Positions 20,354 through 23,683 of a stretch of DNA of 64,000 bases are shown in pieces. How positions within the stretch are numbered: the stretch's first letter is position 1; the number at the start of each line of letters is the position of its first letter. The position numbers and the translations under genes were made by a program. Below the pieces are notes generated by a model. The model was not told where the DNA came from, did no database searches, and saw only the letters and a program-made list of their open reading frames with translations. The stretch covers positions 124,001-188,000 of the forward strand of contig NZ_FNKQ01000002.1 of the NCBI RefSeq assembly GCF_900100875.1. Direction: 5' to 3'. The DNA is from Halopelagius longus. Its GTDB lineage: Archaea; Halobacteriota; Halobacteria; Halobacteriales; Haloferacaceae.

Positions 20354-22261
20354 ATGGCGAGCAACAAGATTCTCGGTATCGACCTCGGTACCACGAACAG
20401 TGCGTTCGCGGTGATGGAGGGCGGCGACCCCGAAATCATCGTGAACTCCGAGGGCGACCGGACCACACCCTCCGTGGTCGCGTTCACCGAGGACGACGAG
20501 CGTCTCGTGGGGAAACCGGCGAAGAATCAGGCCATCCAGAACCCGGAGCGCACGATTCGTTCTATCAAGCGCCACATGGGTGAGGACGACTACACCGTCG
20601 AAATCGACGGTGAGGACTACACGCCGGAGCAGATTTCGGCGATGATTCTCCAGAAGATAAAGCGCGACGCCGAGGACTACCTGGGCGACGAAGTGGAGAA
20701 GGCCGTCATCACGGTTCCGGCGTACTTCAACGACCGCCAGCGTCAGGCGACGAAGGACGCGGGCGAAATCGCCGGCTTCGAGGTCGAACGCATCATCAAC
20801 GAACCGACCGCCGCGTCGATGGCGTACGGGCTCGACGACGACTCCGACCAGACCGTCCTCGTGTACGACCTCGGCGGCGGGACGTTCGACGTTTCCGTCT
20901 TGGACCTCGGCGGCGGCGTCTACGAAGTGGTCGCGACGAACGGGGACAACGACCTCGGTGGCGACGACTGGGACGAGGCCATCATCGACTGGTTGGCCGA
21001 GGAGTTCGAGAACAACCACGGCATCGACCTCCGCGAGGACCGACAGGCCCTCCAGCGTCTGAAGGACGCCGCCGAGGAGGCGAAGATAGAGCTCTCCTCG
21101 CGGAAGGAGACGACCATCAACCTCCCGTTCATCACGGCGACCGACTCCGGTCCGGTCCACCTCGAGGAGAAACTGTCGCGCGCGAAGTTCGAGTCTCTCA
21201 CCTCCGACCTCATCGACCGGACGGTCGGCCCGACGGAGCAAGCCCTCGAAGACGCGGGCTACTCGAAGGACGACATCGACGAGGTCATCCTCGTCGGCGG
21301 TTCGACCCGGATGCCGCAGGTCCACGAGAAGGTCGAGGAGATGCTCGGGTCGGAACCGAAGAAGAACGTCAACCCCGACGAGGCCGTCGCACTCGGCGCG
21401 GCCATCCAAGGCGGCGTCCTCGGCGGCGAAGTCGACGACATCGTTCTGCTCGACGTGACGCCGCTGTCGCTCGGTATCGAGGTGAAGGGCGGTCTCTTCG
21501 AGCGTCTCATCGAGAAGAACACCACCATCCCGACCGAGGAGTCGAAGATATTCACCACGGCGGCGGACAACCAGACGTCCGTGCAGGTCCGCGTCTTCCA
21601 GGGCGAGCGCGAAATCGCCGAGGAGAACGAACTGCTCGGCGAGTTCCAGTTGACGGGCATCCCGCCGGCGCCGGCCGGAACGCCGCAGATCGAGGTCGGC
21701 TTCAACATCGACGAGAACGGCATCGTCAACGTCGAAGCCGAGGACAAAGGCTCCGGTAACGCCGAGTCCATCACCATCGAGGGCGGCGCGGGCCTCTCCG
21801 ACGAGGAGATAGAGCAGATGCAGCAGGAGGCCGAACAGCACGCCGAGGAGGACAAAGAGCGCCGCGAGCGCATCGAAGCCCGCAACGAGGCCGAGAGCGC
21901 CATCCAGCGCGCCGACACCCTCCTCGAAGAGAACGAGGAGGAGGTCCCCGAGGACGTCGTCGCGGACGTCGAGGACGCCATCGACGAGGTGGAGGCCGTC
22001 CTCGAAGACGACGACGCCACGAAGGAGGAACTCGAAGACGCGACGGAAGCGCTCTCGAAGGAACTCCAAGAGATCGGCAAGCAGATGTACCAAGAACAGG
22101 CCCAAGCGGGCGCCGGCGGTGCGGGTGCCGGCGGCGCGGGCGGTATGGGCGGCGCAGGCCCCGGCGGTGCGGGCCCCGGTGGCGCGGGCGGCGCCGGTGC
22201 CGCCGACGGCGACGAGTACGTCGACGCCGACTTCGAGGACGTGGACGAGGACGAGGACTGA
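20354..22261 (+). CDS. dnaK: Hsp70 chaperone DnaK
   Basis: 635 residues. The ATPase domain carries [50 protein letters not shown] and the linker region [14 protein letters not shown]; the substrate domain follows ([13 protein letters not shown]), then a helical lid and a Gly/Ala-rich tail ending [12 protein letters not shown]. The start at ATG 20354 gives the conserved [13 protein letters not shown]. DnaK folds proteins with DnaJ and GrpE, both encoded in this block. Hsp70 in archaea was acquired from bacteria according to general knowledge, and the whole set travels together here. Confidence 0.97.
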
Positions 22262-22282
22262 GGCCTCGTCCTCGTCCGCCCA

Positions 22283-22413
22283 CCAGAACTGCTCCGCAGT
22301 TCTGGGGACGTCCCAAACTCGCGAGGCGAGTTTGTGGGCTCGAAAGACGCAAGGCGTCTTTCGAACGTAGACGACGAAGACGAGCAGTAAGCGAGACGGC
22401 GAGTAACTCGCCG
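22283..22413. repeat. Series of perfect hairpins between dnaK and dnaJ
   Basis: Four perfect inverted repeats plus one palindrome lie within 131 bases. CCAGAACTGC-TCC-GCAGTTCTGG is at 22283-22305. The palindrome GGGACGTCCC is at 22305-22314. CAAACTCGC-GAG-GCGAGTTTG is at 22314-22334. TCGAAAGACGC-AAG-GCGTCTTTCGA is at 22340-22364. CGGCGAGT-A-ACTCGCCG is at 22397-22413. The first three hairpins have 3-base loops and stems of 9-11 bp without mismatch. They may terminate, process or stabilise the dnaK mRNA, or be a small mobile palindromic element. No gene fits in 22262-22528. Confidence 0.8.
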
Positions 22414-22528
22414 GACGCGGCTACCTTCGTTTCGACCGTACGCTCCGAGGAGTCGCTTCGTTCGTCGGAACCTGTCGTCCGCGAGGCGCGATTTTGAAGT
22501 GGCCCGCCGAATTATGCACGTACAACTG

Positions 22529-23683
22529 ATGAGCGAGGACTTCTACGACGTGCTCGGGGTCTCGCGGGACGCCAGCGAGGACGAGATAAAGAAGGCGTAT
22601 CGGAAGAAAGCGTCACAGTACCACCCGGACGTCTCCGACGAACCCGACGCCGAGGAGAAGTTCAAGAAGGTCAAGAAGGCCAAGGAGGTACTGACCGACG
22701 ACGAGAAGCGGCAGATGTACGACCAGATGGGTCACGACCGCTTCGAGCAAGCCGAGAAACGCGGCGGCGTCGGCGGCGGCGGCGCGGGCGGTATGGGCGG
22801 CATGGGCGGTATGGGCGGCGGCGGCCAGAACCCCTTCGAGGACATCTTCAGCCAGTTCTTCGGCGGCGGGGGCGGCGGCCGCGGCCAACGCCGCAACCAA
22901 CCGCGACAGGGGCGGGACCTCCGCACCCGCGTCTCCTTGGACCTCGACGAGGCGTACGAGGGCGTCGAGAAGCAGTTCACCGTCGCGCGTCCGGAACGCT
23001 GTCCGGAGTGCGACGGCGAGGGTCACCCCCCGGACGCCGACGTGACCACCTGCCCGCAGTGTAACGGCCGCGGGCAACAGACCACCGTCCGCGACACCGC
23101 ACTCGGCCGCGTCCAGCAGACGCAGACGTGTCCCCACTGCGGCGGCGAGGGACAGACGTACAGCGAGACGTGTCCCGAGTGTAACGGCGACGGGACCGTC
23201 CGCAACGAGGCGACCCTGTCGGTGGACATCCCCGCGGGCATCCGCGACGGCCAGACCCTGCGGATGGAACGCGAGGGCGCGCCCGGCGAGAACGGCGGGC
23301 CGAACGGCGACCTTCTCATCGAGGTGTCCGTCCGCGACCACGAGGAGTTCGACCGCGAGGGCGACGACCTGTACCACCACCACGCCATCTCCTTCCCGCA
23401 GGCCGTCTTCGGCGACACCGTCACGGTGCCGACGGTGGACGGACAGGCCGAACTGGACGTCCCCGAGGGCACCCAAAGCGGCGAGACGTTCCGCCTAAAG
23501 GGTAAGGGGATGCCCCACCTCCGCGGCCGCGGCCGCGGCGACCTGTACGTGCAGGTGCAGGTCGTCACGCCCGAGGAACTCAACGAGGACCAACGCGAGG
23601 CGCTCGAAGCGTTCGCCGAGGCCGGCGGCGAGGAAGTCGACGTAAAGCAGGGCTTCTTCGAGAAGATCAAGAACTCCTTCTGA
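22529..23683 (+). CDS. dnaJ: Hsp40 co-chaperone DnaJ
   Basis: 384 residues from ATG 22529 (MSEDFYDVLGV); ATG 22514 is in frame but lies before the transcript start predicted from the ATTTTGA box at about 22491. The J domain has the HPD triad (YHPDVSDEP). A Gly/Met-rich linker (about 80-118) is followed by four zinc repeats CPECDGEG, CPQCNGRG, CPHCGGEG and CPECNGDG and the C-terminal substrate domain. It stimulates DnaK ATPase and delivers clients. It is separated from dnaK by 267 bases of hairpins. Confidence 0.96.
   Translation: MSEDFYDVLGVSRDASEDEIKKAYRKKASQYHPDVSDEPDAEEKFKKVKKAKEVLTDDEKRQMYDQMGHDRFEQAEKRGGVGGGGAGGMGGMGGMGGGGQNPFEDIFSQFFGGGGGGRGQRRNQPRQGRDLRTRVSLDLDEAYEGVEKQFTVARPERCPECDGEGHPPDADVTTCPQCNGRGQQTTVRDTALGRVQQTQTCPHCGGEGQTYSETCPECNGDGTVRNEATLSVDIPAGIRDGQTLRMEREGAPGENGGPNGDLLIEVSVRDHEEFDREGDDLYHHHAISFPQAVFGDTVTVPTVDGQAELDVPEGTQSGETFRLKGKGMPHLRGRGRGDLYVQVQVVTPEELNEDQREALEAFAEAGGEEVDVKQGFFEKIKNSF

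Follow-up and report, generated by a model that had tools for sequence, protein, structure and literature searches.

Two head-to-head copies of a dispersed haloarchaeal two-hairpin element as the probable source of a hairpin series at the end of dnaK

What is the run of perfect hairpins that follows dnaK in Halopelagius longus? A preliminary description of the window, the 64,000-nucleotide stretch of this genome (G000) that was analysed, noted four mismatch-free inverted repeats and a palindrome 3' of dnaK, and offered three readings: control of the DnaK to DnaJ ratio, a thermal sensor, or a family of palindromic mobile elements. We consider it highly likely that the series is two head-to-head copies of a dispersed haloarchaeal, CGTC-tagged two-hairpin element, inserted in the last codons of dnaK.

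The dnaK end and its empty site in a congener

All of the repeats first described are present, and three of the hairpins do share a 3-base loop (TCC, GAG and AAG). The regularity is, as had been claimed, not ordinary: the RNA fold of 22240-22420 has z = -9.8 against shuffles, and the DNA fold of 22238-22369 has z = -10.8. The original list was incomplete, in that a 14-bp perfect stem at 22243-22277 precedes the series and takes in the dnaK stop codon. The features of the locus are these:

20354 to 22261, plus strand: dnaK (open reading frame; comparison with the congener's locus, L006)
22238 to 22242, plus strand: left border GACGT, the D-V codons of dnaK and the insertion point (comparison with the congener)
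22243 to 22368, no strand: 126-bp insert, missing in the congener (alignment to the empty site in L006)
22238 to 22311, plus strand: unit 1 of the two-hairpin element, including borders (covariance model R1, E = 1.4e-8)
22243 to 22277, plus strand: unit 1, hairpin 1, 14-bp stem (stem search, fold)
22278 to 22281, plus strand: unit 1 linker GCCC, consensus TGCCA (unit alignment, R1)
22283 to 22305, plus strand: unit 1, hairpin 2, CCAGAACTGC-TCC-GCAGTTCTGG, 10 bp with a 3-nt loop (stem search, R1)
22305 to 22314, no strand: palindrome GGGACGTCCC, the fused CGTC/GACG borders of the head-to-head units (stem search, R1)
22308 to 22369, minus strand: unit 2 of the element, in reverse orientation (R1, E = 6.8e-6)
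22314 to 22334, minus strand: unit 2 hairpin, plus-strand sequence CAAACTCGC-GAG-GCGAGTTTG, 9 bp with a 3-nt loop (stem search, R1)
22340 to 22364, minus strand: unit 2 hairpin, plus-strand sequence TCGAAAGACGC-AAG-GCGTCTTTCGA, 11 bp with a 3-nt loop (stem search; the type recurs in genome G033)
22370 to 22390, plus strand: stranded original dnaK end GACGACGAAGACGAGCAGTAA, now untranslated (21/21 identical to the functional dnaK end of L006)
22397 to 22413, no strand: 8-bp hairpin with a 1-nt loop, outside the insert (stem search; congener alignment)
22492 to 22499, plus strand: TTTTGAAG, promoter-like box of dnaJ, about 36 nt 5' of its ATG (similar boxes at other dnaJ loci)
22529 to 23683, plus strand: dnaJ (open reading frame)

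Comparison of dnaK-dnaJ gaps among relatives, which the preliminary description had proposed, revealed an empty site. The gap is 267 bp here; in Halogeometricum pallidum and Halogeometricum limi it is 81-99 bp, and most Halorubrum have about 82 bp; the congener G001, whose DnaJ is 88% identical to that of G000, and most other relatives lack the structure. At its dnaK locus the congener reads GAGGACGT followed directly by GGACGACGAAGACGAGCAGTAA, with no insert. The window reads GAGGACGT, then a stretch ending in AACGT, then AGACGACGAAGACGAGCAGTAA, and is 126 bp longer; the additional sequence falls between GACGT and the last dnaK codons. This alignment implies that the original DnaK end (DDEDEQ and stop) has been stranded at 22370-22390. 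The last dnaK codons, GGACGAGGACGAGGACTGA, now come from the insert, and the C-terminus has changed from DDEDEQ in the congener to DEDED. In hairpin 1 of unit 1, the left arm is made of the DnaK tail codons, the loop holds the stop codon and the right arm is their inverted copy. Absence from sister strains with no trace of insertion had been named as grounds for refutation, but the trace is explicit. In the single-stranded DNA fold the insert is branched, and its border bases hold the structure closed.

The last hairpin of the original series, at 22397-22413, is probably a chance structure unrelated to the insert, because it lies outside it and stems of at least 8 bp number 51 in the 64-kb window, about one per 1.25 kb. 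Closely spaced hairpins are a different matter. Across the window and 800 kb of sampled sequence, a few stretches of which were picked for holding a known copy, there were 18 pairs with 3-nt loops no more than 12 nt apart, against 0.0 in shuffles. Mismatch-free stems of 9 bp or more that enclose a 3-nt loop were enriched about 3.5-fold in 400 kb from each of two genomes, the sample of G000 including some stretches chosen for known copies.

Architecture and distribution of the unit

The preliminary description had suggested searching the genome for the stems, exactly and degenerately. The window stem that was searched has no other exact copy, and a plain repeat search would therefore miss the family, which was recognised only through the comparison of dnaK gaps and a gapped pattern. 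Other hairpin-bearing gaps have ACCAGAA..TTCTGGT in common, and the gapped pattern ACCAGAAn{3,16}TTCTGGT is present in 20/40 related genomes, with few matches to a reversed control. This pattern, together with covariance searches, recovered dispersed homologous copies.

From the flanks of 20 copies, the layout is CGTC/GACGTT - hairpin 1 - TGCCA - hairpin 2 - GACG. The consensus of hairpin 1 is GACGAGAnC-nnn-GnTCTCGTC; its first stem pairs are G-C then A-T, and those of hairpin 2 are A-T then C-G. A typical unit is 57 nt long with 10-bp stems and 3-nt loops; others measure only 51 or 45 nt. Among 80 units from a structural pattern search limited to 3-nt loops, stems are mostly 10+10 or 7+7 bp. 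The linker varies between TGCCA, AGCCA and CGCCA. The left border is mostly CGTC or CGTT in the pattern search. In 22 aligned units the right border GACG is invariant and the loops have 3 nt. These 22 units, none of them from a dnaK copy, were used to build the covariance model R1. Of their cells, 95.8% pair, compared with 36-39% when partners are slid, and 13/20 base pairs have changed on both sides: the stems covary.

In the window, R1 matched 22238-22311 on the plus strand (E 1.4e-8) and 22369-22308 on the minus strand (E 6.8e-6); the next match had E 1e-3. Hits on both strands resolve the hairpin series into two head-to-head units, with the palindrome as their common CGTC/GACG border. Unit 2 is a divergent family member (E = 7e-6), and its hairpin, TCGAAAnACGC-nnn-GCGTnTTTCGAACG, recurs beside tandem units in G033, a genome of another family. 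A scan against Rfam gave nothing above the gathering score, only sub-threshold matches to miRNA hairpins. The preliminary suggestion of a palindromic mobile element family is supported by a filled and an empty site, dispersed homologous copies and covarying stems.

R1 matches occur in 34/40 order-level relatives. They fall at 17 distinct places in this genome; G003 has 76 matches and G033 has 40. The number of candidates scored was limited, which makes the copy numbers lower bounds, although sites that match on both strands enter some totals twice. With a cut-off of E <= 1e-6, 19/24 genomes of the same order were positive and 0/124 outside it; as judged from these sequence matches, the element is dispersed through the order Halobacteriales. 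No viral contig carrying the unit-2 hairpin was found.

At two loci in G033, L320 (contig C49) and L321 (contig C4), two or three units follow one another head to tail with a period of about 57 bp. They have GACGTT borders in common, which looks as if each new copy had joined at the edge of an earlier one. A second subfamily, with the linker CGTTCA between its two hairpins (ACCAGAAATC... and GCCAGAACGC...), is nearly identical at three intergenic places of this genome (L280, L281 and L287, at C1:514806, C3:413982 and C2:539284).

Could the palindromes instead have grown in place with no mobile element, the repetitive acidic dnaK tail offering quasi-palindromes at which templates switch? In favour of this, hairpin 1 repeats the dnaK end in inverted form and the tail is present twice. 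Loop triplets across the family also pair as reverse complements (GAA/TTC, GGA/TCC, GTC/GAC; r 0.65, permutation p 0.001, the copies being not fully independent), which looks as if single hairpins invert within the unit. However, hairpin 2, the linker and the borders are those of a family whose members are scattered over unrelated genes and genera. This membership largely refutes growth in place, to which we give very little credence. Template switching may nevertheless maintain the stems without being their origin.

Copies inside genes and at other dnaK ends

Two properties let the element sit inside genes: most units have a length divisible by three, and one frame lacks stops. Of the 80 units from the structural pattern search, 57 are divisible by three in length, and 53 of these 57 are stop-free in frame. 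Full-length intragenic units, mostly 57, 51 or 45 nt, lie in frame on the sense strand without stops and encode 15-19 residues of the form D-V-D-E..S-S-A-N..R-S-G-D. Their hosts include a Toprim protein resembling archaeal DnaG, glutamyl-tRNA synthetase, a GHMP kinase (homoserine kinase-like) and a pyridine nucleotide-disulphide oxidoreductase. In purF, the congener G001 exceeds G000 by exactly one 15-codon unit, giving a filled and empty pair within the genus; the same unit is missing in 21 further genomes compared. When this PurF is aligned to Bacillus PurF in the PDB, the alignment breaks exactly at the unit, whose flanks meet at the adjacent chain residues 295 and 296. PDB alignments of an aldehyde dehydrogenase and a GH3 protein likewise break at the unit.

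A homoserine kinase-like gene of G001 (L223, C1:1270447-1270508) apparently holds two adjacent in-frame units, one of 45 nt directly 5' of one of 57 nt. Mobile genes host the element too: units lie in frame within tnpB in G010 and G003 (L201, 1816-1878; L207, 1102-1160), and a unit in G033 spans a tnpA/tnpB junction (L319, 1784-1847).

The dnaK end is a recurrent site. Among 56 haloarchaeal dnaK loci with the tail motif, 9 carry a unit at the identical nucleotide, after GAnGACGT. These nine copies come from about six genera, namely those of the window, G010 and G018, Haladaptatus, Halorubrum, and Natronococcus/Natrialbaceae, and in several of them related species lack the unit. Because a genome has about 150,000 GACG sites, random insertion would not give such recurrence. 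The conserved D-V-D-E codons (GACGTnGACGA) match the element's own border and would make dnaK a recurrent target; spread between species by recombination is an alternative. Hairpin 1 of the dnaK copies is longer than the family norm, and a protein tail and its stop codon are encoded in it; these copies may therefore be specialised or spread by recombination rather than fresh insertions.

These copies bear on the proposals that the hairpins set the balance of DnaK and DnaJ, either as a thermosensor or as a terminator or mRNA-processing array defining the dnaK 3' end. The RNA fold directly 3' of the stop codon is very stable, and many 3' ends in Haloferax volcanii have a hairpin upstream, one tested hairpin terminating 59% of transcripts (PMC7237163). 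For bacteria, PMC8355165 proposes hairpin clusters as terminators. Read by eye, the congener has GCATTTTTCG after dnaK, with a T5C-like terminator stretch (ATTTTTC), where the window at 22415-22440 has GGCTACCTTCG, and the T-run is missing from the hairpin-insert allele. Against this, the congener and most relatives lack the structure and the identical unit type lies inside many unrelated coding sequences. No T-run directly follows the stems in the window, as a T-tract or bacterial-type intrinsic terminator would have it, and a scan for bacterial-type terminators or promoters found none. Moreover, dnaJ keeps its own promoter-like box, such boxes lying 35-38 nt 5' of dnaJ in 51/101 loci. Ratio control and thermosensing, the first two of the early readings, are therefore not supported, and we regard a regulatory origin as improbable. 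The Haloferax termination data and the missing ATTTTTC leave room for a role at the dnaK 3' end that the insert may have acquired; any such effect would be secondary, and no cellular function need be assumed to explain the structure.

Movement and relation to known elements

We infer mobility from comparisons of filled and empty sites only. The perfect stems of changing sequence and the reverse-complement loop pairs suggest folding as a single strand and template switching. The element would move as a folded single strand, with a trans-acting enzyme joining it at a GACG/CGTC tetranucleotide, while template switching at the palindrome would keep the stems perfect and flip the loops. At dnaK, two such units would have inserted head to head after GACGT, in the terminal D-V-D codons.

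A domain search found neither Y1 (PF01797) nor TnpB in G000; no IS200/IS605 transposase was found in this genome, nor did we find any transposase or autonomous copy of the element. Y1/TnpB was rejected as the source on this absence, and because Y1 number and copy number show no correlation across 40 genomes (Spearman 0.18, p 0.26). Two candidate autonomous copies were also set aside. One is a 5,044-bp contig (L318, G101:C36, 1-5044) with inverted copies of a longer repeat, itself starting with a unit, at its two ends; the contig carries chromosomal-type genes, by eye SAH hydrolase-like and hydroxyacid dehydrogenase-like. The other is a tnpA-tnpB element (L251, L252) in which the unit is internal, not at the end.

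The PATEs of Haloquadratum walsbyi (PMC3119063) raise the question of whether the series is instead a terminal-only IS605-type remnant with fused left and right ends, mobilised by TnpA. Compared by description, PATEs are likewise haloarchaeal and very short, with two palindromes; they have near-terminal palindromes and no terminal inverted repeats, shrink to 52 bp and are mobile without an intact transposase of their own. Units also lie within or beside tnpB in G003 and G010, and inside one tnpA-tnpB element in two genomes. In that IS200/IS605-type element the unit is 126 bp 5' of tnpA (L251, G034:C1:893494-893555; L252, G015:C2:730558-730619); the two versions, from genomes of two families, are 91.6% identical over 1.9 kb, with hairpin loops GAA and TCC. 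However, this genome has no Y1 or TnpB, and an R1 scan of 29 tnpA/tnpB loci, whose boundaries are mostly undefined, found no unit at an element end: those present are insertions inside an ORF, near a gene, or internal. In contrast to PATEs and IS605, the unit has GACG/CGTC borders on both sides, and no link to IS605 ends was found. We think a PATE unlikely and continue to favour the CGTC-tagged element.

Among known systems the bacterial CGTC-tagged REP dimers (PMC3733652) come closest; with them the unit shares an unpaired terminal CGTC tag, a CCA-type tail by the stem, inverted dimers, covarying palindromes and in-frame intragenic copies without a dedicated transposase (there encoding 20-30 residues). 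It differs in its stems, 10 (or 7) bp rather than 8-9 bp, in loops mostly of 3 rather than 4-5 nt, and in first stem pairs that are often G-C, whereas the first two positions in the bacterial elements are A/T pairs. Those elements rarely cluster and occur in five bacterial phyla but no archaea; ours form tandem arrays and are confined to Halobacteriales. REPIN/BIME doublets with RAYT similarly make one dispersed unit of two inverted palindromes (PMC3733652), but with a GTAG tag and Y1, in place of the CGTC/GACG tag and a genome in which no Y1/RAYT gene was found. Rickettsia palindromic elements (PMC10969869), compared by description, are also palindromic, sit in frame in unrelated housekeeping genes and add a recognisable peptide; the PurF and other PDB alignments show the same kind of in-frame insertion in conserved proteins, absent from homologues. 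They are about 150 bp long and form ten families, unlike the 45-57 bp dimers in archaea. More broadly, and tentatively, the units may form an order-wide haloarchaeal family of single-strand hairpins, suited to coding sequence, moved by an enzyme outside Y1/IS605 and landing near site-specifically at the dnaK end, time and again in different genera.

Outside Rickettsia and some other bacteria, in-frame palindromic elements that add peptides are little known. We found no description of this family, or of such elements in Archaea, in the searchable literature, most subscription papers lying outside its reach. With a haloarchaeal family, some of whose hosts are genetically tractable, mobility, the missing enzyme and effects on proteins become directly testable, aided by clean filled and empty pairs and a recurrent landing site at dnaK. 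The finding is also a warning: a striking hairpin in a haloarchaeal 3' UTR, or an extra segment in a haloarchaeal protein, may have been inserted and need not be regulatory.
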